Below, piece after piece: positions 16,318 through 38,700 of a stretch of DNA of 64,000 nt. Position 1 is the stretch's first letter; the number at the start of each line of letters is the position of its first letter. The stretch lies in the NCBI GenBank assembly GCA_029552745.1, contig JAKPDK010000184.1:62001-126000 (forward strand). The letters run 5' to 3'. The position numbers and the translations under genes are program-made. A model generated the notes under the pieces. The model was not told the DNA's origin. It searched no databases and saw nothing but the letters and a program-made list of their open reading frames with translations. Origin of the DNA: Candidatus Hydrogenedentota bacterium (GTDB lineage: Bacteria > Hydrogenedentota > Hydrogenedentia > Hydrogenedentales > SLHB01).

Positions 16318-16890
16318 CGTTATTAAACTATTAAGATATCCTACATAAGTTTACCCAACTTCAAAAAAATTTGCCAAACCATCAGCATAAATCCTTAGTA
16401 GAAAGATGCAAGTGCTTCCTCCTCTTTTCAGATTTGAAACCTCGCAATGACCCACCGCCTACGCCCTGAAAAAACCTACAGACCTTCTTGTACAACCACG
16501 GTTCAATTGTACCACAAAAACAAGACTCCCGTGGGGACCTCCTGTTGCATAACCTCACAAGCGTTTGGACTACACCCAGAAGATAGACCTGGGCCTATAC
16601 GCCCCGTTTCGATTGCGAGGAGCGAGTCCCCGAAGCGACGAAGCAATCCGCTCAATCGCACAGCGCAAGAGGGCCTAGTGCAGAGACATGGACTTCCTCT
16701 AAATCCGGTGGGGATTGCCACCTCGCCCCTTCGGGGCGCCTCGCAATGACACACCAGGAAAACGGTATGTATCCTGACGCTAACAAAAATACTATCCCAC
16801 TGCTTCATTTCTCCCCTGTTAGACATCCTTTTTTCTTTGTGTTAAAGTTTATTCGCGGAACCAGAAACCAGTGACTTGGGAGGTCGAATC
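16318..16890. other. Intergenic region holding repeat copy 1
   Basis: 573 bases between divergent genes. The only recognisable element is the inverted-repeat element at 16612-16751. GGGAGG at about 16878-16883 is the ribosome site for the gene starting at 16891. No convincing ORF was seen. Confidence 0.6.
16612..16751 (+). repeat. Intergenic inverted-repeat element, copy 1
   Basis: About 140 bp, starting ATTGCGAGGAGCGAGTC with GAAGCGACGAAGCAATCC inside the left arm, and ending GCCTCGCAATGACA. The ends are imperfect inverted repeats of about 45 bases, and the right arm holds the small hairpin CGCCCCTTCGGGGCG. The outermost TGTC of the left end is lost here. Same orientation as copies 2, 4 and 5. 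Confidence 0.85.
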
Positions 16891-18783
16891 ATGAAACATA
16901 AACTCCTGTTCGTTTGGGTTGGATTGGTAAGTCTCAGCATGCTGTGTGTTTCTGCCCAAGAACCGACATCTCCTCCAGCAGAGCAGCCGGCGCAGGCGCC
17001 CGCCGAACAACCAGCGCCCGTCCCACCCATAAAATCCCTGACTTTTGGAGTCCCAAACCCCACCGCACCCTTTCACCACATAATAATGATCATCGACGCT
17101 GAAGCTTTGCCGAAAGGGTTGGTTACGCAAGTCGAAGTAGACGGCAAACCTCTTTTCGAGAAATGGGTCAACGACGTCCAATTTCTGAACGTCGGGAAAG
17201 ATCAGCCCATTGCCGCCGGCGTCGGAATAGGAACTGACAAGACCGAAGGGCAAGTGGTAGGAGGACATGACTTTCAAGTGTTGGCGCCGTGCAACTGGGT
17301 CAATGGCTCTTCTCACACCATGCGGGTCGCCATCAAATCCGAGTCCGGCGAGGAACGGGTATTTGAAGGACAAGCTAGCGCACCCGAAAAAGGCGGTTAT
17401 TGGAACCCGGCTTGGCAGCGGTTTATGTCTTTTGTACTTAAAGAGACCGCCGGCATTCCGAGAGAACAGGACCCCGTGACTGTGACATTGGGAGTGTTTG
17501 CCGATGACCTCGCAAATCCCGATGAAGAAATTCGTGTGGTCACGTACGCACCTGATAATCCTAAAGCTCAACCCGATGGATACGTCGTCGTTCCAGCCCA
17601 AGTGATTTCTGTCACCGAGTGGCGCGATGAAAAGATAATGGCTATCGAAGAGCACGACCCCGAAACCAACGAACGAGTTCATCGGTACGACCCAACTAAG
17701 ACTGTGGAACTCGTCTTTCTGGCGGACCTACAACCTTATGAAACACGCGTCTATCAAGTACTCTATGGAAATCCGGCAGCAGAACCAGCACCGCTGGAAA
17801 CCGATCTAGCCGTTACCAAAGGCGAAGGACTAGCCCGAATAGTTAAAAACAAATTCTACGAGTTTGGTCTATCCACCAACAGCGGCATGGTTGAAACGGT
17901 GAAAGTTCTCGGCAACGGCGAACCGGTTCTCCTGGAACACCGAATCGAGACCAACGGGGCTGTTCATTGGAACCCGGGCTGCTACTCCCCGCCAACCCCC
18001 TGGGTCCACGCCAGTGACTGGGAGAATCCCGAATTCGAAGAAATCACGGGACCGATAGTCCACCTCGATCGCCGCTACGCTCCTCTGCCCCACATGACTC
18101 AAGCGGTGGCAAATGTTTCTTATTCGTTTTACGCAGGAAAACCGTACGTTTTGATGTCCACCTTGCTGGATGTGCAAGAAGACCTTTTCGTCAAAGCGCT
18201 GCGTAATATGGAAATCGTCTTCAACCACGCCGTCTTGGACGAATTTGTATGGCAAGATCATGAAGGGCAAATGCACGCCCTTCCAATTGAGACCGCAAAA
18301 AAACACCCCATTCACGCGTTAGAAATCGCGCCAGACACCCCGTGGATGGCATTTATCAGCAGAAAACATAAGGTCGGTTTCGCCAACATCCTTTTGGCAT
18401 ACCAAAACACGAACCGTTTTGGCGCTCCTGTTTCGGAACTCCAGCCTTATATCTATGTGCAAAATGGACCATGGATTTACTGGTCGCGCGGACTCGTGTA
18501 TCCGTTTGGTGGGAAAAACATCAGCCGGATGGTTCGCGTTCGTAAAGGAAGCATGTATTACGAGAAAAACGCATGGGTACCCTTCCGGTTTGCAGAGGGT
18601 GACAATCCGTTTGCAGGTATTCAAAACCTTCAAAAGCAGTTGACCAACCCACCCGAAATCGTCGAATGGGCGCCCCTGGATGACCGCACACCAGCGAAAT
18701 GGGTTATGCTTATTCTAACGATGCCTTTTGATGAAGGAGTGGCTGGAGCTGTGAGCGGTCACAAGGAAGTAAAAAACCAGTGA
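16891..18783 (+). CDS. Large secreted protein of unknown function
   Basis: 630 aa. A signal peptide (KHKLLFVWVGLVSLSMLCVSA) is followed by a Pro/Ala/Glu-rich linker (about 25-50, repeated PAEQPA units), then a beta-rich body of about 570 residues with no motif I recognise. The segment WNPGCYSPPTPWVHASDW and the frequent aromatic beta strands suggest a galactose-mutarotase-like or carbohydrate-processing beta-sandwich protein, as in lyase-type enzymes; this is a weak inference. GGGAGG eight bases upstream supports the start at 16891. The gene stands alone and converges on bioY. Confidence 0.7.
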   Translation: MKHKLLFVWVGLVSLSMLCVSAQEPTSPPAEQPAQAPAEQPAPVPPIKSLTFGVPNPTAPFHHIIMIIDAEALPKGLVTQVEVDGKPLFEKWVNDVQFLNVGKDQPIAAGVGIGTDKTEGQVVGGHDFQVLAPCNWVNGSSHTMRVAIKSESGEERVFEGQASAPEKGGYWNPAWQRFMSFVLKETAGIPREQDPVTVTLGVFADDLANPDEEIRVVTYAPDNPKAQPDGYVVVPAQVISVTEWRDEKIMAIEEHDPETNERVHRYDPTKTVELVFLADLQPYETRVYQVLYGNPAAEPAPLETDLAVTKGEGLARIVKNKFYEFGLSTNSGMVETVKVLGNGEPVLLEHRIETNGAVHWNPGCYSPPTPWVHASDWENPEFEEITGPIVHLDRRYAPLPHMTQAVANVSYSFYAGKPYVLMSTLLDVQEDLFVKALRNMEIVFNHAVLDEFVWQDHEGQMHALPIETAKKHPIHALEIAPDTPWMAFISRKHKVGFANILLAYQNTNRFGAPVSELQPYIYVQNGPWIYWSRGLVYPFGGKNISRMVRVRKGSMYYEKNAWVPFRFAEGDNPFAGIQNLQKQLTNPPEIVEWAPLDDRTPAKWVMLILTMPFDEGVAGAVSGHKEVKNQ

Positions 18784-21510: not shown

Positions 21511-24417
21511 TTAGGATATGATTTGTTGCGTGCGATTGATGATCATGTCTTGCCAGTCTTTATCCAAGGTGGCGAAGCGCGCTGACCAACCGGCAACTCG
21601 GACGGCAAGGTTCGGATATTTTTCCGGATGACGCTGCGCGTCGAGCAACATGGCGGAATCCACGACATCAACGTGCATGTAGAAGCCGCCGAGACGCACA
21701 AACCCTTTCAATAAACCCACCATCGCCGAAAGCCCTTCCTCACCCTTCACGCTTTGAGGGTGAATCTTTAATTCGATGGTGGCTCCATTCGGCACACGCG
21801 TCAAATCCATTTTGCAATAGGACTTGATGACCGCCGTGGGACCGGAGAAATCGGTACCGGGCGATGGCGAAAAGTTTGTAGCAAGAATCTCGCCTCGATG
21901 ATGACCATCGGGCGAAGCGCCCCGCCCGTCCAGCCTCCAACCTATTTCCCGACCAAACGTACTAATGCCAGGTGGCCGCAGGACACCATTGCGTTCCGGA
22001 ACACGCGCCGCGAGCGCTGTGTAGTCATTGAATAGCCGCTCCATTATCTCATCTGCTTCGTCGTCATCGTTTCCGTAGAACACAAACCGACTCAAAATAA
22101 GCCGCCGCAAGGCTTCTTCACCTTCGTAATCTCTCCGCAAAATGTCCACAAATTCGGAAAGGGTCAGATATTTCTGTTCATAAACCAACTTCTTGATAAC
22201 CAAGAGACTATTGGCGACATTTGCCATACCGCCGGCATGCGGCGCCAAAACATTATAGTGCGCCCCCCGGTAATGATAACCCCTGCCACGTTCGATACAA
22301 TCATCTACAAACATAGACAAAAGCGGCGCAGGAAGGCTTGTGTTCCAAAAGTTATCGGCGCCAGCGTGGAATCCATCCAGGTGTTCTCTCAGACGATCCA
22401 AGAAACGGGCATAGAGCGTCTCGAAGTCGGGAAACTCGGGAGGTGGTTGGGTTGAATCATGTAGCCCAAGCACGCCGTGCAAAAGGGCAAGCATATCAAA
22501 CGGTGCGTAAATAAAAGCCGTCTTGCCTGGTACAAGCACTTCCCAGCATCCGTCGTTTGTGAATCGGCGGGCTTCACGCAGAGAATAGCCGAACTTCACA
22601 AGACCCTCAATTACGGTGTCTTCGTTGTATACGGCTACAATACCGCCCCCGTGGCGCTGCACCTCTGCAATTCGCCGTAGAAGCTTTTCGCCGGTACGCC
22701 GGTTGATACGCACTGCAATAGGAAAGTCACTGATGTGCAGCTCTTCAACGATGTCGAGAACCAGGTAGGTCACCTCATTCGTGACGTCATTACCGTCCTC
22801 ATCCACGCCGCTCAAAATAATATTCTGGTAGAATTGTGCGTCGCCCGTGCCGCCAAAATGATGAGCGCCGGTCCATTCGCAACCTTTGATCCAAAAATGA
22901 GCGAGGATTTCACGTGCCTCATCAAGCGTGATTCGTCCCTCGGCAAGGTCTTTTTTGAGATAAGGACCCAACATCTCATCAATACGGCCGATGCCTGACC
23001 AGTTACCCATTAACCGCTGAAACACATACATGAACCACAGCGATTGCACCGCCTCGTAAAACGTGGAAGGCGGGTTCTCCGGCACGTTACGGAGATTCTC
23101 CATCACCTTCAGATAGGTTTCACGTTCTTCACCCGTTGATCCAGCCGCAAGACGTGCCAACTCTTCCATATGCCGTTTGTGCCAAATAGCAGCAGCGTCC
23201 AAGCAGATCAACATCGACTCCAGAAGGTCTTTTCCTCCCTCCACCAAGACCACAGGAGCCGTATTATTCGTCCCCAATTTCTCTTCAAAAACAGGCCGGC
23301 CGTCGCGGAAGTCTACTTGCCATACACCAAGTAGGTTCTGCGACGAGGATGACGCTTTTGCATTGGGGTCGATGGGCAACACGCCTCTCGACAAGCGAAC
23401 TTCACTGATAGCCCCTTCGCAACCCAAACTCTCCGGGGGATACCCCCCTATGTAAAATAGCCCGGGTGCCTCATCTTGCGTTGGAGAAAGCGTAATATTT
23501 TCGGACGCAACGCACTCTCCGTCCACGTAGAGGCTCAACCGATCAGCGGCAAACGTCATCGCCACGTGATGCCATTTGCCATCCACGATGTTCCGTTTAG
23601 AAACTATCTCACACGGCGAACATGCCGGGACATATGCCGCCAAAAATCCCGTGCCGGCTTGGGTGTACAGTTCCCAATGTCCGCTAGAACTCTTGTTTCG
23701 GTTCAAAACCAGCACATTAACCGGACCGGCAAAATCCACTTTTGCCCAACACTCCACCGTGATGGGAGGCATCGCGTATTCTGGTTGACTCAGCCCCTCC
23801 GCCCACACGCGACCGTCCCCCACGAATCGTACCGCACTAACGACATCTTTCGGACCGGAAATTATGGGCACAAGCGGACTTACCGGCTCGAAATTTCCGC
23901 GCGCTAGCCGTTGCCTTATTTGCTCGCGCAGCCCGCGATATCCCATCTTTAAGACACGGTCAAACCCTATCGTAGTATGGCTGGTACTTGGCACATTGGC
24001 AACCGGCGTAGCATGTCCCGCAGCTTCGCGAAGCGTCGCTGACCCGACGACACGTTCCCCCGGCAGTATACGCAGCGGGGCTTTTTCGGCGACGGCTTTA
24101 CATGCAAATGCATACCGCTTGTCGGCAGAACAACCGAACACCTCGAGCTCATTCAAGGAAAACTCAGCGTTTCGGAGAGCCCGGCCATGTTCTCCTGAAA
24201 GTGCCCGCGCCGCAAGCGCATGCGTCACTTCCGAAAGTCGTCTCGGGGGGCTAGGTCGCCAAACATCACCGAACGGCAACGTACTTTTGGATTCGTGGGA
24301 TTTACCCACTTTAGCCATTAAGACCCCTCCTCCCAACATCGCGGCTGTGGAAGATGAGGTAATGAACTCTCGCCGAGAGAGACTCTTCGATTGCGTGGGG
24401 TGGGTATGCTCTTCCAT
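21511..24417 (-). CDS. Tat-signal glycyl radical enzyme (PFL-like) with inserted LamG/ConA-like domain
   Basis: 968 aa. Residues 1-35 hold a twin-arginine signal (SRREFI at 14-19, then a hydrophobic Ala/Gly stretch). Residues about 50-185 and 395-968 form a pyruvate-formate-lyase-like glycyl radical enzyme: ILPGERVVG near 117-125, catalytic-loop Cys624 in NDGCWEVLVPGKT, and the C-terminal radical loop RVAGWSARF with Gly943, followed by QDMIINRT. Residues about 190-350 are a LamG-type beta-sandwich (VECWAKVDF, KWHHVAMTFAADRLSLYVDG, GAISEVRLSRG) inserted into the fold. AGGAGG seven bases upstream fixes the start at 24417. No radical-SAM activase is adjacent. Export of this oxygen-sensitive class is unexpected: Tat would have to move a folded, perhaps already activated enzyme. 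Substrate unknown; a carbohydrate-linked one is inferred from the LamG domain. Confidence 0.85.
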   Translation of the reverse strand: MEEHTHPTQSKSLSRREFITSSSTAAMLGGGVLMAKVGKSHESKSTLPFGDVWRPSPPRRLSEVTHALAARALSGEHGRALRNAEFSLNELEVFGCSADKRYAFACKAVAEKAPLRILPGERVVGSATLREAAGHATPVANVPSTSHTTIGFDRVLKMGYRGLREQIRQRLARGNFEPVSPLVPIISGPKDVVSAVRFVGDGRVWAEGLSQPEYAMPPITVECWAKVDFAGPVNVLVLNRNKSSSGHWELYTQAGTGFLAAYVPACSPCEIVSKRNIVDGKWHHVAMTFAADRLSLYVDGECVASENITLSPTQDEAPGLFYIGGYPPESLGCEGAISEVRLSRGVLPIDPNAKASSSSQNLLGVWQVDFRDGRPVFEEKLGTNNTAPVVLVEGGKDLLESMLICLDAAAIWHKRHMEELARLAAGSTGEERETYLKVMENLRNVPENPPSTFYEAVQSLWFMYVFQRLMGNWSGIGRIDEMLGPYLKKDLAEGRITLDEAREILAHFWIKGCEWTGAHHFGGTGDAQFYQNIILSGVDEDGNDVTNEVTYLVLDIVEELHISDFPIAVRINRRTGEKLLRRIAEVQRHGGGIVAVYNEDTVIEGLVKFGYSLREARRFTNDGCWEVLVPGKTAFIYAPFDMLALLHGVLGLHDSTQPPPEFPDFETLYARFLDRLREHLDGFHAGADNFWNTSLPAPLLSMFVDDCIERGRGYHYRGAHYNVLAPHAGGMANVANSLLVIKKLVYEQKYLTLSEFVDILRRDYEGEEALRRLILSRFVFYGNDDDEADEIMERLFNDYTALAARVPERNGVLRPPGISTFGREIGWRLDGRGASPDGHHRGEILATNFSPSPGTDFSGPTAVIKSYCKMDLTRVPNGATIELKIHPQSVKGEEGLSAMVGLLKGFVRLGGFYMHVDVVDSAMLLDAQRHPEKYPNLAVRVAGWSARFATLDKDWQDMIINRTQQIIS

Positions 24418-24782
24418 GAACCGTCCTCCTTCTCCGGCTTGGTGGCCGCAAAAGACATGGAACATTTTGTCGTCTCGTGGCTTCATTCTGAGATGCTCTT
24501 TCAAGAAAGTCAAACAAATTCGATGCCTATTGTAGCGACGGACAGGAAATTCCATTTTACCCATCTGCAGTCTTTCCAACACAAGCCAAAGCCAAAAGGT
24601 ATCAACACCAAGAAGAATCCGGTTCACATCCAGCATATCTGTGAATCGCAGCATGCCACATACATGAAGAGATACCAATCGGTAATGTCTAGTTTTCTGC
24701 TTTATTTGTTATTTTTTTACTCGTTTGTGAAAATAGTACACTTGCGTCCTGTGTTACTTAGGAAGAAGGAAATTTTTTATAC
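24418..24782. other. Divergent intergenic region between the glycyl radical enzyme and ubiE/menG
   Basis: 365 bases, AT-rich toward the ubiE side. It must contain promoters for both directions, but no clear consensus pair stands out. No gene is evident. Confidence 0.45.
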
Positions 24783-25478
24783 ATGGAACATGTAGGTGCG
24801 ATAGTACAATTCTTCGAGTCGGTCGCACAACGCTACGATCGTTTGAACCGTTTTTTGTCTTTTTTTTCTGACATTGGATGGCGAAAACGCCTCATCCAGA
24901 CCCTACCCAAAGACCATCATCTCCAATTGTTAGACCTTGCCACCGGCACTGGAGAGGTTTTACTGAGCGCGACGAAGGTCAAAGGGCTAATTGGTAAGAG
25001 CATTGGCGTTGACATCTCCCCAGCCATGTTAAGCCAAGCAAGCCAAAAGACGAGAGAATTAAAAGATCCGCACATAGGATTTGCCTGCGCAGATGGATTG
25101 AATTTGGCGTTCGCAGACCAAAGCTTTGACGCGGTAACGATTGCGTTTGGCATACGCAACATGCCTGATACAAAGAAAGCCCTTGACGAAGTGTACCGGG
25201 TTCTACGTCCCGGCGGGCACCTCGCCATTTTGGAGTTTTCTCTTCCCGAATGCGCGTATGTCCGGTGCCTTTATTTTGTTTATCTTCGCTATGCGGTGCC
25301 TTTTTTGGGAGGCGTTTTTACCGGAAATTGGAAGGCATATCGTTACCTGCAGCAAAGCATCGAAAGATTCCCCTACGGGAATGCTTTCTGCCAGATACTC
25401 GAAGAAAGTGGTTTTCGTAACATAACCGCAAAGTCAGTCGATTGCGGGATAGTGACTATCTACACGGCAAGCAAGTAG
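24783..25478 (+). CDS. ubiE: Demethylmenaquinone methyltransferase
   Basis: 231 aa, normal length for MenG/UbiE. It has FESVAQRYDRLNRFLSFFSD at the N terminus, SAM motif I LLDLATGTGEVLL, GVDISPAML, the family signature FDAVTIAFGIRNMPD and the later YRVLRPGGHLAILEFS. It methylates demethylmenaquinone in the last step of menaquinone synthesis. GAAGGAAA lies upstream of the ATG. menF starts six bases after the stop and menD follows, so menaquinone rather than ubiquinone is the product (symbol menG would also fit). Confidence 0.93.
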   Translation: MEHVGAIVQFFESVAQRYDRLNRFLSFFSDIGWRKRLIQTLPKDHHLQLLDLATGTGEVLLSATKVKGLIGKSIGVDISPAMLSQASQKTRELKDPHIGFACADGLNLAFADQSFDAVTIAFGIRNMPDTKKALDEVYRVLRPGGHLAILEFSLPECAYVRCLYFVYLRYAVPFLGGVFTGNWKAYRYLQQSIERFPYGNAFCQILEESGFRNITAKSVDCGIVTIYTASK

Positions 25479-25484
25479 CAGAAC

Positions 25485-26867
25485 ATGAGAGTGCCAAACC
25501 TAACTGCGACGTTGGAGACAGCCCCGGTAATTATCTTGGAAGAACTCCAAAAGGGTGCCATTCGCCATTCGTTTCTTAAGCAGATAGAACTACCCATCCA
25601 ACCTCTAGACCTTGTTTCATGGCTTGCCTCTCGCAGGGAAATCCCAAAATTGTACTGGGCAACACGGTCCGGACAATATGAAACCGCTGGCGTCGAAAGC
25701 GCGTACGAAATACGCTCCGAAATCACCTCTAAAGAAGAATTCTTACGTGATCTTTCCATATTCCAACAAAAAGCGGAAGGTATATCATCTTTTGTTGCCA
25801 TCGCTTTCGATAGCTCCAACGGTATTGACAAGACGTGGAACGGTTTTGGATGCGCCAGAATCATCGTCCCCCGAGTTGAAATCCGTCGAAAAGAAAACCG
25901 TTTCACTTTGGTATTCACCTGTACCGGCGATGAAGCCAGCAATGGTACTATGCAGAAGCTTGTAAACAAGTACTTTCCAAATCAAGAGAACCGCGACATA
26001 GTTCCGTCGTCCTATAATCCACCTCTTACATGCACTCATGAACCCGATTTCCAGAACTGGCAACAAGACGTTGAAAAATCGCTGGACCTCATCCGACGAG
26101 GCGTGCTTAAGAAGATTGTACTCGCACGCAAGACCACCGTGCGTTTTTCTGAGGATTTGGATCCCTTGGAGGTATTTCGGCAATTCGCCCTTATGACTCC
26201 CCGTTGTTTCAAGTTCTATCTGCAAGAAACGACAAGGTCTGCTTTCTTTGCGGCATCTCCGGAACGCCTGTATAAGAGACGCCACCGCTTTATTCAAACG
26301 GAGGCATTGGCTGGAACACGTCCGCGTCATTCACACCGCAAAGAAGATCAAGCCCTTAAACGCGAGCTCATTCAGGATGCTAAAGAGCAACTCGAACACG
26401 CCGTCGTAGTCGAAATGATCCAGTCTCGTCTGGCTGCGCTTTGCGAGTCTCTCCGAGTCGACCGCGACCCGCAACTTATGCGGCTGCCTGGTTGTCAACA
26501 TCTATACACGAGATTCTCGGGCTTGCTTCATGAAGGCGTAAAGGACATCGCGATTTTAACGGCACTTCATCCAACTCCCGCTGTTGGCGGTTTCCCAGCG
26601 GATGAGGCTTTAAGACAAATCCGTTCCATAGAGCCGTTCTCTCGCGGGTTCTATGCCGGACCGGTCGGTATTTTGAGTCAAGAAGAATCGGAGTTTGCTG
26701 TAGGGATTCGCTCAGCCGTTATCCAAGGTGACCAATTGCACCTGTTCGCGGGAGCCGGTATCGTCGAAGGATCAAAACCAGAACAGGAATGGCTGGAACT
26801 AGACACGAAACTGTCCACATATTCAAACCTCTTTGAACAAATCCATGCAAGATTTGAAAAACCTTAA
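25485..26867 (+). CDS. menF: Isochorismate synthase MenF
   Basis: 460 aa, chorismate-binding enzyme. C-terminal signatures include KIVLARKTTVRF, FFAASPERLYKR, TEALAGTRPR, the LHPTPAVGGFP loop and the Mg-binding Glu residues near HAVVVEMIQ. It turns chorismate into isochorismate, the first committed step of menaquinone synthesis. The N-terminal ~150 residues are variable, as in the family. It sits between ubiE and menD, and its stop overlaps the menD start by 23 bases, suggesting coupled translation. Confidence 0.93.
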   Translation: MRVPNLTATLETAPVIILEELQKGAIRHSFLKQIELPIQPLDLVSWLASRREIPKLYWATRSGQYETAGVESAYEIRSEITSKEEFLRDLSIFQQKAEGISSFVAIAFDSSNGIDKTWNGFGCARIIVPRVEIRRKENRFTLVFTCTGDEASNGTMQKLVNKYFPNQENRDIVPSSYNPPLTCTHEPDFQNWQQDVEKSLDLIRRGVLKKIVLARKTTVRFSEDLDPLEVFRQFALMTPRCFKFYLQETTRSAFFAASPERLYKRRHRFIQTEALAGTRPRHSHRKEDQALKRELIQDAKEQLEHAVVVEMIQSRLAALCESLRVDRDPQLMRLPGCQHLYTRFSGLLHEGVKDIAILTALHPTPAVGGFPADEALRQIRSIEPFSRGFYAGPVGILSQEESEFAVGIRSAVIQGDQLHLFAGAGIVEGSKPEQEWLELDTKLSTYSNLFEQIHARFEKP

Positions 26868-28647
26868 TTACGAGTGGGCGCGGTTCATCGTCGAAGAATT
26901 GGCGCGAACCGGTGTACACATGTTCTTTATTTCCCCGGGGGCACGAAGTGCGCCATTGACTGCAGCTGTTGCGGCGAATCAACGTGTCAAAACTGTTGTC
27001 CACTATGACGAACGCGGCGCGGCCTTCTGCGCCCTGGGCTACGCTAAATCCACCAAAAGCCCCGCTGCGTTGATCTGTACATCGGGGACAGCCACAGCCA
27101 ATTATTTCCCCGCGGTTATCGAGGCTTCCTACGCCAATGTTCCCCTCATTATCCTTACCGCAGATAGACCGCCGGAACTCATCGACTCGGGTGCTAATCA
27201 AACCATACGACAACACGGTCTTTACGGAGAACATGTTCGCTTTGCCATTACATTGGCTTGTCCCACTTCGTCCGTGCCTCCGGAAACCCTTCTCACCGCG
27301 ATCGACGACGCTGTACGCAGAGCTTTGAAACCGAAGCCCGGGCCTGTACACATCAATTGCCCGTTTAGGGAACCTTTGCTTTTTACATCTAAACCCGAAT
27401 CCTACCCCGTACGGTCGAAAAATTCCCGTCAATGGCAATCAGGTACGGCGCCTTTCACAACCTGGTTACCACACGCTACGAACGTTTCAAGTCTTCCAAT
27501 TGACAAGGAAGTGCAAGAAATCGCCGACTCACTTTCCAAAACACAAAAAGGTCTTGTGATTGCCGGACATCTCTCGTCACGGGCGGAGCGCGAGGCTGTG
27601 GTCGCAATTGCAGAGACAATCCAATGGCCTATTTTCCCCGACATTTGTTCCGGCTTACGACTCGGAACCCAACACGAGTTGCTGTTCCCCTATTATGACC
27701 TTGTATTGGACTCCAAGGACTGGAGCAGAGAATTCACGCCCGATGCCGTACTTCATGTTGGTGGCGCGCTAACAAGCAAACGTCTCTTGTCATTTCTCAA
27801 GGCGTCCGCCCCAAAAACGTATTTGCAAATTTGTACCGAGATTTCCAGATATGATCCATTAGGTATGGTGACACACCGCATCGATGCCGAAATCCCACCA
27901 TTCGTGGAACTGGTTCTCCGCCACGTCGGAAAAAAACAAAAAAAGTCCCACAGAAAACTTTATAAAACGGTGCCGACAAGAGGTGTCCCCATGGTTCAGA
28001 CGCTTTCTCTCGTCGTAGAGCACAAGCTCGACGAATTAATGGAAGAGAGAGAGGAAATAACCGAACCTGCTGTGTGCCGCGCGCTCTCAAAACTTGTCCC
28101 GGAAAACCACAACCTATTCTTGGGAAACAGCTTACCCATCCGCGAGATGGACACCTTCGGCTCCAATCGGGGAAGCTCCGTCTCTGTATTCGCCAACCGC
28201 GGAGCAAGCGGCATTGACGGGAACATCGCCACTGCCGTAGGAATTGCCAAGGGGACTTCTTCCGGTGTTACGGTTTTACTGGGCGACTTGGCGTTTTTGC
28301 ACGACCTCAATTCCCTCGCCCTTCTGAAAACAATACGCACACCTTTTGTGATCATCGTACTAAACAATGACGGTGGAGGAATTTTTCATTTTTTGGACGT
28401 GGCGAAATTACGCGGGGATTTTGAACCCTACTTTGTAACCCCCCATGGAATGACCTTTTCTCCTGCAGCAGACCTGTTCGACCTGGGATATTTCTGCCCA
28501 AAAACGCTGACAGAGTTCCGCAAAATCTATCAAAAAATGTCAGCCGCGCCTCATGCCTCAATTATTGAGGTCCGCACGAACAGAGAGGAGACCGTCAAGA
28601 TCCATGAGCGATGGCGCACCGAAATTCTCCGTGCCCTTCCCCGATAA
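26845..28647 (+). CDS. menD: SEPHCHC synthase MenD (thiamine diphosphate enzyme)
   Basis: 600 aa. The N-terminal domain has FFISPGARSAPLTAAV and HYDERGAAFCALGYAKS (Glu of the ThDP site), a CTSGTATANYFPAVIEAS segment and DRPPELIDSGANQTI. The C-terminal domain has NRGASGIDGNIATAVGIA and VLLGDLAFLHDLNSL, with IVLNNDGGGIFHFL completing the ThDP/Mg motif. It joins isochorismate and 2-oxoglutarate. The ATG at 26845 is preferred to a TTG four codons earlier. menH, menC, menE, menB and menA are not adjacent; a tRNA-Ser gene lies convergent 10 bases after the stop. Confidence 0.95.
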   Translation: MQDLKNLNYEWARFIVEELARTGVHMFFISPGARSAPLTAAVAANQRVKTVVHYDERGAAFCALGYAKSTKSPAALICTSGTATANYFPAVIEASYANVPLIILTADRPPELIDSGANQTIRQHGLYGEHVRFAITLACPTSSVPPETLLTAIDDAVRRALKPKPGPVHINCPFREPLLFTSKPESYPVRSKNSRQWQSGTAPFTTWLPHATNVSSLPIDKEVQEIADSLSKTQKGLVIAGHLSSRAEREAVVAIAETIQWPIFPDICSGLRLGTQHELLFPYYDLVLDSKDWSREFTPDAVLHVGGALTSKRLLSFLKASAPKTYLQICTEISRYDPLGMVTHRIDAEIPPFVELVLRHVGKKQKKSHRKLYKTVPTRGVPMVQTLSLVVEHKLDELMEEREEITEPAVCRALSKLVPENHNLFLGNSLPIREMDTFGSNRGSSVSVFANRGASGIDGNIATAVGIAKGTSSGVTVLLGDLAFLHDLNSLALLKTIRTPFVIIVLNNDGGGIFHFLDVAKLRGDFEPYFVTPHGMTFSPAADLFDLGYFCPKTLTEFRKIYQKMSAAPHASIIEVRTNREETVKIHERWRTEILRALPR

Positions 28648-29670: not shown

Positions 29671-31035
29671 TCAAAGCCCATACTCACTTGGAATAAAGTC
29701 CGGATAAAACGCAGCGTAGTGATCGACCGCCTTGCCTGAACTTGACTGTACCGGTTCAAGCCCAAGCTTCATCTGGTCCAGCCAAACGAGTTCCGACTCG
29801 GGCACTTGGCTCGTCCCGTTTGCTACCGCCTCTTCAATGATGGCTATCGCTTCTACAGCCGCGCGCAATGCCCGCTCCAGATAGTCTTCACTGGAAATAA
29901 TGGCGCGTGAAATTCGAATCACCGATTCCGGTGCGAGCATGAGTGCCTCCACGCTTGTCCGCACATCCGATGAAACCAAAAGGTCGCGCAGCACACGTTC
30001 CTGACCATGTCGTCGAGATTCATTTAATAGTTTGCAGTCGTACCAAAGCTCCTCCAGACATACCTCCGGCGAGTATCCTCCGAAAAGCCGCACGTAAGGT
30101 ACCGACTCGTTGCTCCAGAGGTCGCAGCAACTCATTGCAACGTTCCCGATTCGACTGGAATGGGCACAAGCTGCGGACTTGCCCTCCATGGCGATGGGAA
30201 TTCCCGCAATCGCCTTCAGCATAGGACCTTCGTAGGCGCAGTCTTTATCGGGTCCCGTTGCGCCACATTCCACAGCAACAAGCGAACGTGCCGCTCCCAC
30301 CGCACGTACCATCGCCGCAAAAACTGTCGGTATCATCCGTTTGTTGGCAAGTTGCATCGCCGTGTTGGCAAAACCGCACGCTGCGTCGCCCCCAGCGATC
30401 TTCCCATGCTTCTTGGCTATCGAAACAATCTTTTCCCAAAGAAACGCCATATCTCGCGACGCCAACTCCCCCAAAGCAAAAACCACCCCACCGGAGTCGC
30501 ACATCAAAAGCGCAGGGTCGTGCACCTCTTTGCCACCGGTAGATTCTATCGCCAAGATGTCAGCGTACGGCGCACACCGCTCAAATGACTCCAGTACCAA
30601 GCTTGTCTCTGTGCTTGTCCGGTTACGGGGCGGCCTAACGCGATCGCGGATATCCGCAATGGTCATGCGCAATGCCGCATGAACCCCTTTATCTTCATAT
30701 TGTTGGATAGCTTCGCGGGTCACGCGAGCGATACGTTCACCCCACTCGGGGTAGGCTGTCATCTCAAACACCTGCTCAACTTCAATGACAAAATGCTCGA
30801 TACCGAGCCGAGCGGCGCGTTCCAACGCTCCCTTCGCCATCTCTCCATATACATGCTCCACTTGGTCCATCGTGGCGTGACTTACTTCAGAGCCGTGTGG
30901 CAAGATGTAGTTCAACTCCGGAAACGTTTCTCCCGCCCCAACCACAAATCCCGGCTTTACTTCGACGGGATTCGGCGAAACTCCGAAAACCAACTCATCC
31001 GCTTTGGATATCGCCAAACTGCTGAACTTTTTCAT
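29671..31035 (-). CDS. mtaB: Methanol--corrinoid protein methyltransferase MtaB
   Basis: 454 aa, close to archaeal MtaB length. It begins KKFSSLAISKADELVFGVSP, as in the family, and has the zinc-site region GGDAACGFANTAMQLANK and the signature VAVECGATGPDKDCAYEGP followed by IAMEGKSAACAHSS. MtaB cleaves the methanol C-O bond with zinc and passes the methyl group to the Co(I) corrinoid of MtaC. AAAGGGG eight bases upstream fixes the start. An intrinsic terminator separates it from mtaC, so it probably has its own promoter or depends on read-through. In a bacterium the final methyl acceptor is expected to be tetrahydrofolate rather than coenzyme M. Confidence 0.92.
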   Translation of the reverse strand: MKKFSSLAISKADELVFGVSPNPVEVKPGFVVGAGETFPELNYILPHGSEVSHATMDQVEHVYGEMAKGALERAARLGIEHFVIEVEQVFEMTAYPEWGERIARVTREAIQQYEDKGVHAALRMTIADIRDRVRPPRNRTSTETSLVLESFERCAPYADILAIESTGGKEVHDPALLMCDSGGVVFALGELASRDMAFLWEKIVSIAKKHGKIAGGDAACGFANTAMQLANKRMIPTVFAAMVRAVGAARSLVAVECGATGPDKDCAYEGPMLKAIAGIPIAMEGKSAACAHSSRIGNVAMSCCDLWSNESVPYVRLFGGYSPEVCLEELWYDCKLLNESRRHGQERVLRDLLVSSDVRTSVEALMLAPESVIRISRAIISSEDYLERALRAAVEAIAIIEEAVANGTSQVPESELVWLDQMKLGLEPVQSSSGKAVDHYAAFYPDFIPSEYGL

Positions 31036-31126
31036 GGTAGCCCCTTTCCATGCGCTTTTGGCTTTTAAAGAACACACCAAGTCTTAACAGACATAACATG
31101 TGACTGCTCTCTGTTATTCCGTGGAG

Positions 31127-31162
31127 AAAAAAAAGCCGAATCCACAATTTATGGACTCGGCT
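31127..31162 (-). terminator. Intrinsic terminator after mtaC
   Basis: Minus strand: an 11-bp stem AGCCGAGTCCA / TGGATTCGGCT with one mismatched pair and a 7-base loop, followed by eight T residues. It lies 21 bases after the mtaC stop and 92 bases before the mtaB start. Confidence 0.8.
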
Positions 31163-31183
31163 CTACGTTAAGACTAGAAAAAC

Positions 31184-31852
31184 CTAGTTGGTGCGATTAA
31201 GGAATTCTAAAGCGCCTTGCGGATCGGGCGAATAGGCGTCGGCGCCGATTTTGTCGGCGAATTCTTGCGTCAGCGGCGCACCTCCAACAATAACTTTCGT
31301 GCCCGGCATCGCTTCCTTCACCAGCTTGACCGTCTTCTCCATATTAATCATGGTGGTTGTCAGCAACGCACTTAGCCCCACGCTGGCGCCCGGATTCTGC
31401 TTCACCGCGTCCACAAACTTCTCAGGAGAAACGTCAACGCCGAGGTCGACAACCTTGTAACCACCCCCTTCAATCACCATGGCCACCAGATTCTTGCCGA
31501 TGTCATGCAAGTCTCCCTGGACCGTACCAATAATGAAGGTCCCCCGATGTTTTGCCTCGCCGGAGTCGAAGAATGGACGCAGGTGTTTCATCGCTGCTTG
31601 CATCGCTTTGGCAGCCATCAAGACATCCGGAACAAACACCTCGTTCCTACTGAATTTCTGTCCGATCGCACTCATCCCGACAATTAGCGCTTTTTCGAGA
31701 ATCTCGCTCGCCGGAATACCCTGGTCCAACGCCTTCTTGACCAGTTCATCCGCTCCCTCCTTCCCTTTCATGTCAGGGGGATACGGAGACGCAGCATTCA
31801 CTTTGCCTCGTTCAATACAGGTTGCAATCTCTTTGAGCAATTCCGTTGACAT
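31184..31852 (-). CDS. mtaC: Corrinoid (B12-binding) methyltransferase partner, MtaC type
   Basis: 222 aa. An N-terminal helical B12-cap domain (about 1-90) precedes a Rossmann B12-binding domain with the base-off/His-on motif D-L-H-D-I-G; His116 is the expected lower cobalt ligand. Further B12-loop motifs are VVDLGVDVSPEKF, GLSALLTTTM and VIVGGAPLTQEFADKIGADAY. It carries the methyl group between MtaB and a UroD-family transferase. It lies between the UroD-family genes and mtaB. No RamA-like reductive activase is seen in the window. Confidence 0.93.
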   Translation of the reverse strand: MSTELLKEIATCIERGKVNAASPYPPDMKGKEGADELVKKALDQGIPASEILEKALIVGMSAIGQKFSRNEVFVPDVLMAAKAMQAAMKHLRPFFDSGEAKHRGTFIIGTVQGDLHDIGKNLVAMVIEGGGYKVVDLGVDVSPEKFVDAVKQNPGASVGLSALLTTTMINMEKTVKLVKEAMPGTKVIVGGAPLTQEFADKIGADAYSPDPQGALEFLNRTN

Positions 31853-31883
31853 AGCTGAAACCCCTTCTTCCTAAACGTTTGCC

Positions 31884-32957
31884 TTAATAATGCCCTAATT
31901 CAAGCCCGCGTTCAACAAAAAATCGGTAACTGTCATATTCTACTTGATCCGGGATACTGTGATCCGAATGCAAGGCATAGCCATATCCCCGTTTCACGAT
32001 CGGTATCTTCGACGACAATTCCTGTTCGATTAACCCTTTGTCATTGGAATACAGCACCCGAACATCGATGCCCCCCATGAAGGAAAGTCGATCGCCGAAA
32101 TCCTTATATAACTGTACCAAATCCATTCCCGCCTTCACTTCAATCACTTGCAGGCAATCAATACCCGCCTCTATCATGCCGGGCACCAAGGGCGCCACAT
32201 ACCCGCACGAATGCATGATCACCGGCAACCCCCGGGACTTGGCAAAATCGATCGTTCGTCTATGTCCCGGCAGGATGATGTCTCGATACATGTCCAGCGA
32301 AACAAACGGGCGCGCCTTCAGCCCCATGTCTTCGTAAAACCACACGCCATCGGGATCCCCTTCTTCGGCAAAAAGTATCTCCATAAGACTTACAGTTAGT
32401 TCCGAATAAGTTTTGACCATGTCCTTGATCCAGTCGGGATCCGTCAACATACCCATCAACATGGCTTCATGACCACAGACAGGATGCATCAACTCAAAAA
32501 CGTTCACTCCACTCCAAACAAAAAATCGGCCCTTTTCCCGTGCCGCACGCTTTACATTCCGATATGCTTCAAAATTGATCCGCTCCCGCTGCGGCAACAA
32601 GAACGGCTTGACATGTTCTTCCCACAAACGCCTGTCTTTAACCAAGAAGTCCACATGTTCTGGCGTAGCATCGTGAAGCTTGTGGCGACGCAAAAGCGCA
32701 CCGTTTCCATCACGCGTCAGAATGGTTTCTTCCGTTTCCTCCACCACCTCTGGCTTGAAATCCAGCCGTGCCACTAGATTAAAAGGCCAGCACTCCATCA
32801 AGTCAAACCCAAAATGGTCATCTACCGGCTCCCCTTCCTTCAAATGCCCCTCTCGCGTCCATTTCTTGTGCGTATCCCCCCAGAAATGTTCATAAAGCCC
32901 GATGCGGTCCACCGGCTTTCGGCGCAAAATGTTTTGCATGCGTTCGTAACTAGTCAT
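31884..32957 (-). CDS. UroD/MtaA-family methyltransferase with H-x-C motif
   Basis: 357 aa, uroporphyrinogen-decarboxylase-like TIM barrel. It has MIMHSCGYVAPLVPGM-type sequence (H-S-C, the first two zinc ligands of MtaA-like methyltransferases) and ends near ALHSDHSIPDQVEYDSYRF. In MtaA the third zinc ligand is a Cys at this last place; here Asp or His stands there. Such proteins demethylate the corrinoid or methylate it from another donor; they are not haem enzymes in this setting. The ATG at 32957 has GGAAGGG upstream. It overlaps nothing but lies 23 bases after the preceding UroD-family gene, in the same transcription unit. Confidence 0.8.
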   Translation of the reverse strand: MTSYERMQNILRRKPVDRIGLYEHFWGDTHKKWTREGHLKEGEPVDDHFGFDLMECWPFNLVARLDFKPEVVEETEETILTRDGNGALLRRHKLHDATPEHVDFLVKDRRLWEEHVKPFLLPQRERINFEAYRNVKRAAREKGRFFVWSGVNVFELMHPVCGHEAMLMGMLTDPDWIKDMVKTYSELTVSLMEILFAEEGDPDGVWFYEDMGLKARPFVSLDMYRDIILPGHRRTIDFAKSRGLPVIMHSCGYVAPLVPGMIEAGIDCLQVIEVKAGMDLVQLYKDFGDRLSFMGGIDVRVLYSNDKGLIEQELSSKIPIVKRGYGYALHSDHSIPDQVEYDSYRFFVERGLELGHY

Positions 32958-32980
32958 GATGGCACCCTTCCACAGCACAT

Positions 32981-34228
32981 TTAGTATTTCGGCTCTCCAC
33001 CCACACCGAACCACTCCCGTTTTCTGTCCATATAATGCTTATAATGATCCAACGGTACATCCGCAGGTACACGATGGTCCACAGTTGGGATAAACCCACC
33101 TTGTTCTACGACCGGAAGTATGCGCTGTAGCTCCGCGTCGATTGCCTGCTTCGATTTGATAAGCGCCATCTTGTCCACGCCACCCCACAACCGAATCCGT
33201 TTGCCATACCTTCGACGTAATAAGACCGGATCCGACCCCGCATGAACCTCCACGGGAAACATTGTATTCAACCCATTATCGAGAAAAATCTCCACAACCG
33301 GAAGAATGTTGCCGTCCGTATCCGTAGAATAAATGCAACAACCGTGCGCCACCAGCAAATCGGCGATCCGCCGGTACCACGGTCCCGCCACTCTCCTCAA
33401 CACATCCGGACTCACCACAGGCCCCTGATTAAAACAAAAATCTTCCCATCCTAAGCAAAAGTCCACTTGAAACAACGGCAACACGCGTTCCAACACACCG
33501 CATATACATTCACCAAACGTATTCACAATCTCCTCAAAAAACTCCGGATCTTCATAAGGTAATACCGCAATATGTTCAAAACCAATCAGATTTCTCGGAA
33601 CTCCAATCAGGCTACCACCGGATACCCCTACCGGAAGGTCCGAAGAACGCAAACGTTCCAGGTCTTCCCGAAGCGACACACGACGCAAAATAGACCTGGC
33701 GACAAGACTTGAGATACGCGGTTCTTCACCAGCGGCCCACAAATGCGCATACCGCCTCGGATCGTCCGGGTCTAGCGCTTTTTTGAAGGGCTGCCAGGTC
33801 TCTCGGTTCTTTATCGGAAAATCGAGATAATGCGGGATCGAGCGATCTCCCTTTTTGTTGATTTGAGCGACACATCCCGATTCATCTCGATACGTAATGT
33901 ATTCTTCCGTTTCCTCCAACACCTTATACTCAAACACGGGCGTCAGAGACGTGTTCACCGGCAACCACGTCCAGTTCTCAATACCAAAATACTCGTAAGC
34001 CGTTCTCTCGTCCACCACCCAATCCGGCAGGCCTTGTCGGCGCCAGTTCTCCAAGGTCCGGTCCCAATACCCAAACTCGAAGTTAGGCAGCTTGTCCACC
34101 TCTTGGAAAAACATGACTCGCCGAAAACGTTCACGAACACTCAGTTTATTGTCCGATACCTTTTGGGAACCATCCCCCGTCCAGACCCGTTTTCTCATTG
34201 ACGCCATGCTGAAATCTTCTGCATCCAT
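32981..34228 (-). CDS. Second UroD-family protein, lacking the H-x-C zinc motif
   Basis: 415 aa, longer than its neighbour at 31884-32957. The barrel is recognisable by SVRERFRRVMFFQEVDKLPNF at the start, the IYSTDTDGN segment and the closing GGFIPTVDHRVPADVPLDHY. Where MtaA-like proteins have H-S-C-G this one has YSTDTDGN, so the classical zinc site is missing; an AHGCC sequence lies just before. The role is uncertain: a methyltransferase for another substrate, or a subunit partner of the second UroD protein. GAGG seven bases upstream supports ATG 34228. It is the first gene of the methyl-transfer operon. Confidence 0.78.
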   Translation of the reverse strand: MDAEDFSMASMRKRVWTGDGSQKVSDNKLSVRERFRRVMFFQEVDKLPNFEFGYWDRTLENWRRQGLPDWVVDERTAYEYFGIENWTWLPVNTSLTPVFEYKVLEETEEYITYRDESGCVAQINKKGDRSIPHYLDFPIKNRETWQPFKKALDPDDPRRYAHLWAAGEEPRISSLVARSILRRVSLREDLERLRSSDLPVGVSGGSLIGVPRNLIGFEHIAVLPYEDPEFFEEIVNTFGECICGVLERVLPLFQVDFCLGWEDFCFNQGPVVSPDVLRRVAGPWYRRIADLLVAHGCCIYSTDTDGNILPVVEIFLDNGLNTMFPVEVHAGSDPVLLRRRYGKRIRLWGGVDKMALIKSKQAIDAELQRILPVVEQGGFIPTVDHRVPADVPLDHYKHYMDRKREWFGVGGEPKY

Positions 34229-34724
34229 AGACAACCTCTATTATGCCGTTGGATATGCCTCTTTCTAATCAAGAGATCACGCTATGCTACTTGTCTAAAC
34301 AACGCGATGCAAACCAATGCACTCGTCTGGTATCCTCATCGCTGCACCACGTTCCCATGCGCTACATCCCCCCGGTGTCATTGCGAGGAGCCCCGAAGGG
34401 GCGACGCGGCAATCCCCTCGGCTGTCCGGAGAGTACCACACCCCTGCTCCACGTCCCCTCTGCGCTACGCGGACAAGGGGATTGCTTCGTCGCTTCGAAG
34501 ACTCCGCTCCTCGCAATGACAACCGGTCGTATAAGCCTAGTCTTCCTCGTCGATGCAGTGCCAAAGGTTTATGAATTTATGCAAACAATGCATACATTCT
34601 TGCGATGTATAGCCTCTTTGCTCCTTTCGGGAAAGCCTAAGGAATCGCATTTCCTTCCACATAATCTTGCATCTCGCTGCAAACTCTCGTACCATGAAGA
34701 TAATCTAATGAAGGTGGATGTTTT
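34229..34724. other. Divergent intergenic region holding repeat copy 3
   Basis: About 500 bases between the methyl-transfer operon and a lipoprotein gene. It contains the inverted-repeat element at 34376-34521. No B12 riboswitch fold, promoter consensus or additional gene was recognised. Confidence 0.5.
34376..34521 (-). repeat. Intergenic inverted-repeat element, copy 3 (inverted)
   Basis: 146 bp with ends TGTCATTGCGAGGAGC and GCTCCTCGCAATGACA. The GCGACGAAGCAATCC arm is on the right here (as its complement GGGATTGCTTCGTCGCTTCG), so this copy is reversed relative to copies 1, 2, 4 and 5. Its left arm carries the CCCCGAAGGGG mini-hairpin that copy 1 has on its right. Confidence 0.88.
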
Positions 34725-35715: not shown

Positions 35716-38700
35716 ATGGACAGTGAAGACCAAACCAAAAGCACGCCGCAACAATTGGCAAATCCTGGGGCATTGAGCGCCATGGCCGCAATCTTGATCG
35801 GCGGCGTCTTACTGGCCTTTTGGTCGGTTCGACAAGAAGACCGTAACGTCCGCGAGGAACTACTGGAACAAGCTGTGCTTGTTTCCCAAAGTATCAATCC
35901 AGAACTATTTGCCGACCTTCAATTCAACGCAGCAGATGAAGAGAATCCGTCTTTCCAGCGCATACGAACTTACCTGACAACCTACGCAAAACTGCTCATT
36001 TCTGAGTGGGCGCCGGCAAAGAAACATATTGATATATACATAATGCAAAAAAAAGACAACCAAATCATATTCGGGCCATCAAGCCTCCTTCCCTGGGAAG
36101 ACCCTTCGACTGGAGTGCCTGGCTTGGCGTATGATGAACCACCCCCAGAACTCGAGAGTATTTTCCGTCATCCCTATAGCACTGTGATCGGACCCTATAC
36201 GGACGAATATGGGACCTTTCTTAGCGCCTTCTTGCCCTTACCATCGAGTGGGAAAAAATCACCCTTAGTTATTGGTATGGACATCCTGGCAACAAACTGG
36301 CGAACCAGGAAAAATCTTGCGGCGCTGCCCCCGCTTACGTTGACTATCATCACGCTCGTGGTTTTTGTGGTCGCTCGCATACTCTTTGAACGTCGTAAGC
36401 TCAAACAAACACTTTCTCTTTATCGCTCCGCTGCGCTGGAAGTCTTTCTCGCCTTGGCAATTGGCTCCATCATTACAGCCGGGGTGACCTGGGTAATCTG
36501 GCAACAGGAACATGCCTCCCACGAGGATGTTTTTGAATCGTTGGCAACCCAGTCTTCTTTTTTATTGGTCAATGAAGCCCAAGATTCCGTACAACTAACT
36601 CTAAAAACATTAGAGGGATTTTTCCGTGAAAGTGACTATGTAAAGCCGGAAGAGTTCAGAGGGTTTTCCAAGATTCTTTTCCAAGAGATTGAACCGCTTG
36701 AAGGGTTGATGTGGGCGCCCATCATCGCAAGAGAAAACCTCCAAGACTTTGAGAACCAAATCGCTCGACAAATGCCCCAGTTTAAAATCTGGACGCTCAA
36801 CCCTGACAAGAGCGAACGGAATCGGGATGGTTCCATCAGCTGTCCCGTCCTGTACGCCAGCTTCAGAGATACGGAAAGTGCAGAACTCGTCGGTTGCGAC
36901 CTCTTCTCCGACCCGGCCTGTGCCGACGCTATCAGTCGCTGTCTCACTTCAGGACTGCGGACAGCCACGCGCAAGCCTCTGACGCTTCGCATAGGTCAAG
37001 AAACATCCAGCACGTTGATGTTTCAACCTGTATATTTAGGCGACAACCTTTCTCAGCCCGCAGCTTTTATTGTGGCCTGGCTGAATTGGAAAGTCCTTTT
37101 GAACACCGTCTCGCGCGTCCATGACGCCGTTTCCACGGCGCCTGAATTTGACCTAGCCATTTTTCAACTCGATGAAGAAGACGCAACACCAACCTTGATA
37201 GCCAGCACAGGCGGAGGAAACAGCCGTCTTTCATCTCCAAAACAAACCTCTTTCCATCGTCCCCTTTTCTTGTTCGGAAATGTATACGTCGTTACCGCGG
37301 AACCTACGTCTGAATTCAAAGCCGCTCATCCTCTGTACGCCACGTGGTTTTCCTTGCTGGGCACCTCGGCAATCACAGTTGCCGTGACAATCATTATCTA
37401 CTTAATCAGCCGCCAACGCCGCGAATTAGAGTCACGCGTCGAGGAGCGTACCCGAGAACTCCGCCTTAGCGAAGGAAAACTGCTAGCAACGCTTCATTCC
37501 ATTGGCGATGCCGTGATTAGCACGGATAGCGAGGGACGTATCGTCCATATGAACGCGGTTGCCGAGCAACTGACAGGGTACAAGGCGCCCGAAGTACTAG
37601 GAAGAATCTGTCCTGATGTTCTGAAACTTCTTAACGGTAACACTCGGGAACCTCTTGAATGTCCGATTTGCCCCGTCCTACGGGAAAAGAAAAGCTTCTA
37701 TTTAAAAAATGACACTATTCTCATTGCGCGCGATGGTTCTGAACGAATCATTGCGGACAGCGCGGCGCCCATCATCGACTCCGAGAATCAGGTCATCGGG
37801 GCAGTTTTGGTATTTCGCGATGTGACGATGGAACATACAATGCGGCGGCAACTTCTGGAAGCGGACAAACGCTACAATCAACTCGCTGCATTCAGTCGTT
37901 CCGTTGCATGGGAAGTAGATACAGAAGGTAAATATACGTTTGTCAGTCCCACTGCGCTGCAAGTCTACGGGTATGCGCCGGAAGAACTGGTAAACAAAGT
38001 CTATTTCTACGACCTCCACCCCGAAGAAGGCAGAGAGGCTTTTCGGGCTGCCTGTTTGGAAATCTTCCAACGAAAAGAGACGTTCCGGGATTTCCTCAAT
38101 CCCATTCGTACTAAAGAAGGAAATGTTATTTGGGTCAGCACAAACGCTTTTCCCATCCTCAATGAAAAAGGCGAACTCTTGGGGTACCGAGGCATCGATA
38201 CCGACATCACCGAACGTCACCAAGCGGAGCTGGAACTTCAACAAAAAACTGAGGAGCTGGACCGATTCTTCAGTCTTGGGCTTGACCTATTCGCTGTCAT
38301 GGATGTTCAAGGGCGCTTCCTACGGCTCAATGGCGAGTGGAAAAACGTACTCGGGTATGAACTTCAGGAGCTGGGCACAAAGACCCTCCTGGAATTAGCA
38401 CACCCCGACGACCTTGACAAGACCATCGCTATGCTGACCACCTTGGCACAGCAAGAGAACGTCAAGAGTTTCGAAAACCGATGTTGCGGCAAAGACGGAA
38501 CCTGCAAATGGTTGGAATGGAATGCCATTCCGCTCGGCAATACCGCCTACGTTGCCGTTCGCGACATTACCCAGCGCAAACAGATGGAAAAAACAGTCCG
38601 CGAAAGCGAAGAAGCCTACCGCGCGTTGTTCGAGTATTCCTACGACGCCATCGCCACTCTTGCCGCTCCCGAGTTTTGTTTTACAACCGTAAACGGCGCC

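Follow-up and report, generated by a model that had tools for sequence, protein, structure and literature searches.

A glycyl radical enzyme with a conserved twin-arginine motif and a LamG insert, predicted to be exported, in Candidatus Hydrogenedentota

The gene described here (positions 21511–24417, minus strand) lies in a 64,000-nucleotide stretch of a Candidatus Hydrogenedentota genome, referred to as the window. It encodes a glycyl radical enzyme (GRE) that, on our estimate, has a probability of roughly 0.64 of being folded and activated in the cytoplasm and then exported across the inner membrane via the Tat pathway. GREs are oxygen-sensitive and carry out hard chemistry in anaerobes. 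To our knowledge, the characterised ones are cytoplasmic or enclosed in microcompartments, so that the protein, a GRE by every feature tested, has a predicted location for which we know of no precedent. No Tat-type or exported GRE was reported in the literature searched, which covered few subscription papers, so that an absence from those carries little weight; PMC5606693 and PMC7028382 mention GREs together with Tat or export, but for other proteins.

The minus-strand open reading frame 24417–21511 translates into 968 residues. The frame remains open beyond this ATG, the longest ORF being 24678–21511 on the same strand. The ATG at 24417 is preceded by a good ribosome site (AAGGAGGACGGTTCATG; GGAGGA at 24424–24429, minus strand), and the product begins MEEHTHPTQSKSLSRREFITSS. 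The putative Tat signal region (residues 1–27; 24337–24417, minus strand) contains the twin arginines at residues 15–16, followed by a weakly hydrophobic stretch that runs to about residue 37. The SRREFI motif was found just where the preliminary description had placed it, after a ribosome site, and the arginine pair is kept in 19/19 members of the clade described below. A wrongly assigned start codon was set aside because this pair is conserved while its codons change synonymously.

Pfam matched the window protein to a PFL-like catalytic barrel (PF02901, residues 396–819; 21961–23232, minus strand; E 3.6e-102) and to a Gly_radical domain (residues 846–948; E 4.4e-24). Together with the LamG domain discussed later, all three Pfam domains scored far above their cut-offs. 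The Cys loop, C624-W625-E626 in NDGCWE (22540–22548, minus strand), is the CXE motif with a family-specific Trp at position 625, and the glycyl radical residue is Gly943 in RVAGWSARF (21589–21591, minus strand). The CXE motif marks the GRE eliminases (PMC7077986), the group in which the Cys loop thus places the protein. When 45 sequences were aligned, NDGCWE, H147, R570, D641 and H727 were invariant (45/45 for the Cys loop), and so was G943 in every relative complete at the C-terminus (42/42). A loss of Cys624/Gly943 in all relatives, named beforehand as a reason for doubt, did not occur. An AlphaFold2 model built from the 45 sequences had a mean pLDDT of 87.5 and a pTM of 0.88; residues 1–51 were of low confidence and disordered, save for one predicted helix at 15–27. 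By Foldseek, the model fold was nearest to those of propanediol and glycerol dehydratases, CutC and HypD. The barrel and Gly_radical domain, the conserved Gly and Cys, and a partner activase in the genome assign the protein to the GRE superfamily. Pfam domains, fold and invariant residues thus agree with the earlier claim of an intact GRE, and the protein is predicted to be a catalytically competent member of an uncharacterised subfamily.

Forty-eight related GRE loci were found by scanning public genomes, in Hydrogenedentota, Planctomycetota, Armatimonadota, Lentisphaerota, Kiritimatiellota, Bacteroidota, Chloroflexota, Clostridia and others; the 45 relatives that were aligned are 45–67% identical to the window GRE. 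The subfamily was found in 15 of 68 Hydrogenedentota genomes. The window GRE reached no NCBIfam equivalog cut-off. Its best scores were 370 bits against 678 for PFL2-3 (a subfamily model) and 360 against 1100 for HypD, and the equivalogs for CutC, PFL, HpsG, indoleacetate and hydroxyphenylacetate decarboxylase and PRK09983 all lay far below cut-off. NDGCWE is a distinct signature of this subfamily, which makes a target for substrate discovery.

The best sequence match in the PDB was HypD, the trans-4-hydroxy-L-proline dehydratase (6vxc; E 1.5e-89 over residues 396–966). HypD shares the barrel, the CXE motif and the Gly loop with the window GRE, but its Asp278 aligns with Ser474, its Asp339 falls opposite a gap, it has Val at the position of Trp625, and it has neither a Tat signal nor a LamG domain. 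Both Asp278 and Asp339 are essential in HypD (PMC7077986). The best fold matches were the B12-independent glycerol and 1,2-propanediol dehydratases (1r8w and 5i2g; Foldseek E 2e-43 and 4e-44). These have the CXE motif and a YQN strand in common with the window GRE, but carry no signal peptide or LamG; their WHD segment after the Cys loop reads IYA in the window GRE, with Asp replaced by Ala638, and the aligned His of glycerol dehydratase is again Ser474. Function as HypD or as a diol dehydratase was rejected on the NCBIfam cut-offs and the lost acid–base residues. As the acid–base residues of HypD and glycerol dehydratase are not kept, the substrate likely differs from theirs. PflD/YbiW, deposited with 1,5-anhydro-sugar phosphates (8id0, 8id7), has the GRE fold and sugar-type ligands; it differs in being only about 30% identical, in the score of the window GRE below the NCBIfam PflD cut-off, and in having no signal and no LamG.

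When the neighbours at the 48 loci were clustered, only the activase recurred strongly, and no substrate gene, partner transporter or downstream enzyme was consistently linked to the GRE in this set. Scattered neighbours included AraC-like regulators (seven loci), IclR-like or LacI regulators, sulfatases, a GH116-type glycosidase, an Fe-alcohol dehydrogenase and an enolase-superfamily protein, which hint at sugar-type catabolism. The substrate had been proposed to be a polymer or a sugar acid. The scattered neighbours hint at the latter, although none besides the activase is strongly recurrent; a polymer is unlikely, since the active site of a GRE is buried.

The case for export comes mainly from the relatives. 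In 19 of the 45 members (from Hydrogenedentota, Planctomycetota, Armatimonadota and Bacteroidota), the motif [SNDE]RRx[FL] lay among the first 20 residues and led into a weakly hydrophobic stretch; it was missing from the remaining 26. A tree was computed from the columns after residue 60 only, with gap-rich columns (the LamG insert) excluded. A single branch of this tree separates the 19 Tat members from the 26 others. The trait required one change on the tree, against a mean of 14.7 when the labels of the group without it were shuffled, and no shuffle was as ordered as the observed split. The branch uniting the Tat clade had modest support (81/29), so that a single origin of the Tat signal in this clade is likely, but not proven. 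In the alignment of the 19 Tat members, R15 and R16 were the sole invariant columns before R60, their codons varied among CGG, CGC, CGT, CGA, AGA and AGG, and the hydrophobic stretch held 0–2 acidic residues. C624, W625, E626, H147, R570 and G943 are identical in Tat and non-Tat members. A conserved twin-arginine pair and a weakly hydrophobic stretch, as expected of a Tat substrate, are thus both present.

It is also conceivable that the protein is an ordinary cytoplasmic GRE with a tail that is no working signal, either because translation starts later or because the tail is a binding site for a cytoplasmic activase or chaperone. The location of the characterised GREs agrees with this, 26 close relatives do without the tail, and the window GRE scored 14.0 bits on TIGR01409, the curated Tat model, for which the cut-off is 16.7. 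Its signal is among the weaker ones; relatives matched better (best E 8e-5), and in a whole-genome scan the N-terminus of the window GRE was among 27 places that TIGR01409 picked up. The argument for a Tat signal therefore rests on conservation and not on the window sequence alone. Across the family, TIGR01409 matched 15 of the 19 Tat-type members and none of the 26 others (Fisher p about 1e-8, a value that ignores the relatedness of the sequences). Bacteroidota and Planctomycetota members carry textbook motifs such as RRDFLK, and the N-terminal part of an additional LamG-bearing GRE in genome G013 has NRREFM. The ribosome site stands before the upstream ATG in the window and in most relatives, and an arginine pair kept in all 19 members despite their wide divergence, across at least four phyla and with nothing else invariant before residue 60, is hard to explain by a cytoplasmic tail. 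We consider a cytoplasmic location quite unlikely. The homologues that start downstream of the pair, whose existence had been set out in advance as contrary evidence, do occur, but they all fall on the other side of one branch and hence look like a cytoplasmic sister group rather than a sign of a wrong start. Likewise, a sub-threshold Tat score had been named as damaging if the pair was not conserved; the score is indeed below cut-off, but the pair is fully conserved in the clade. The Tat trait is kept across a wide clade and is cleanly absent from the sister group, which makes the predicted signal more robust than one sequence could show. TatC is encoded in the window's genome (206 bits).

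No clear AxA cleavage site was seen in the signal of the window GRE. Given this and the low signal score, the signal may stay as a membrane anchor. On this reading the Tat signal is real and recognised but uncleaved; the catalytic part of the tethered GRE would face outward from the inner membrane, and its chemistry would be the same. Several relatives also lack a clear AxA site, and in the model the predicted helix at 15–27 is followed by an unordered linker to about residue 51. Against tethering, AxA-like sites follow the hydrophobic stretch in several relatives (ARA in L010, for example), and the cleavage motifs of known Tat signals are often weak. Tethering appears unlikely to us.

An active GRE needs an activase, and a search of the genome for a matching one had been suggested. 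The window's genome has one GRE and one activase above cut-off; the latter (C102:523551-524414; TIGR02494, 316.7 bits) lies about 440 kb from the GRE on the same contig. Its identity to the linked activases is 42–49% for most relatives and 35–40% for three from Clostridia. ORF clustering placed a PFL-type radical-SAM activase beside the GRE in 16 loci, of which six are Tat-type (L009, L013, L014, L018, L020, L022); a seventh Tat-type locus (L008/G030) was recognised by coordinates, giving 17 in total. No signal peptide was seen in the sequences of these GRE-linked activases. Among 22 chosen Hydrogenedentota genomes, an activase above cut-off was found in 11/11 with the GRE and 0/11 without any GRE match; this count is supportive but is no test of independence, because the genomes are related and some of the 11 carry other GREs. 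COX1 (cytochrome oxidase subunit I) was not detected in the window's genome, which fits an anaerobe leading an oxygen-poor life.

The distance between the GRE and its activase in this genome, and the acquisition of a LamG domain, could suggest that the exported protein has lost its radical function and serves as a binding protein. All the radical and acid–base residues of the family are invariant and, in the above counts, activase and GRE are present or absent together. Such a loss of function is highly improbable, and a working radical enzyme is the reading retained here.

The LamG/concanavalin-like domain with its linkers occupies about residues 179–391 (23245–23883, minus strand), as judged from Pfam, the model and its absence in relatives. 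Laminin_G_3 matched residues 219–347 (E 7e-18; 65.7 bits, gathering cut-off 27.6), and AlphaFold2 gave a well-folded beta domain at about 195–391, flanked by helices at 152–173 and 395–425. The domain stands where other members have a loop of about 16 (16–30) residues between conserved core helices. The insert reported at first is thus real, but its boundaries lie nearer to 180–390 than to 190–350. Among the GREs, LamG was seen only in Hydrogenedentota, and two members from that phylum (L012/G034 and L053/G032) lack it while keeping the Tat signal. For these reasons LamG was rejected as the defining trait or a general part of the system, and the core trait of the predicted system is export, not carbohydrate binding. 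Of the two features to be looked for in homologues, the tree bore out the Tat signal for the clade of 19, but LamG for Hydrogenedentota only.

The LamG copies of the GREs formed one group in a tree (86/40), apart from the other LamG domains of the phylum. Several of the latter are parts of proteins whose N-termini are of Sec type, among them a GH2-type glycosidase; another Sec-type carrier in the phylum has an HZS_alpha domain and a beta-propeller. This grouping, and the Sec-type company of the other copies, make a single capture of the GRE LamG from secreted proteins most likely. It may be noted that a Hydrogenedentota relative (L076:4222-8319) encodes 1366 residues with a Sec-type N-terminus, LamG, a WD40-like repeat, a hydrazine-synthase-alpha middle part and a Mala_s_1-like region. 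Three non-Tat relatives from Lentisphaerota and Firestonebacteria (L028:9392-12028, L031:6131-8755, L037:2198-4933) lack a signal and carry, at another place in their N-terminal part, an insert unlike LamG; for the insert of L028, the one of the three that was searched, Pfam gave no match. Since these signal-less relatives carry an insert of another kind, accessory domains alone are no proof of export.

Taken together, the following course of events is proposed. The GRE would fold in the cytoplasm, where the radical-SAM activase, recognised by sequence and devoid of a signal peptide, would place the radical on Gly943. The SRREFI signal, as its conservation predicts, would then take the folded enzyme out through the Tat translocase. 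Outside, the radical would pass from Gly943 to Cys624, and the thiyl would take a hydrogen from a small hydroxylated substrate; Glu626 and His147 would assist an elimination, most likely the loss of water, as the CXE motif suggests. LamG probably holds the GRE to a glycan or to the cell surface. Once lost outside, the radical could not be renewed by a cytoplasmic activase, so that each exported enzyme would have one charge only, a way of working that suits an anaerobe. With moderate confidence, we suggest that a pre-charged radical catalyst is exported in at least four phyla and is tied to glycans by LamG in Hydrogenedentota.

There is a parallel in Tat-exported cofactor enzymes such as glucose–fructose oxidoreductase, which are loaded in the cytoplasm and then exported as folded enzymes; the title of Halbig et al. 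1999, as cited in PMC7317946, states that efficient export of this enzyme depends on cofactor binding. These enzymes, however, hold a bound nucleotide or metal centre, instead of the radical-SAM-made protein radical proposed here. If the GRE is exported, the order known for Tat cargo, in which cofactor loading precedes export, would extend to a free radical on the protein backbone, and radical elimination chemistry would take place outside the membrane, reaching substrates that need no import. As exported-type and non-exported-type members have identical catalytic residues, the reason for export is directly testable.

Other genes of the window were also noted. Beside the GRE gene, on the opposite strand, 24783–28647 likely holds menaquinone genes (UbiE/MenG type, an isochorismate-synthase-like ORF and MenD type). 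The minus-strand cluster at 29671–34234 contains an MtaB-type methanol:cobalamin methyltransferase (469 aa), a corrinoid protein (222 aa) and two URO-D/MtaA-type proteins, which suggests methyl-group metabolism. A 1785-residue hybrid sensor kinase with CHASE, several PAS, two receiver domains and Hpt is encoded at 35716–41073. For the 635-residue protein at 16876–18783, the N-terminus of which is of secretion type, Pfam gave no match at E 1e-5. At 55709–58441, about 31 kb from the GRE gene, lies the gene for a 910-residue GH106-type (alpha-L-rhamnosidase) protein.
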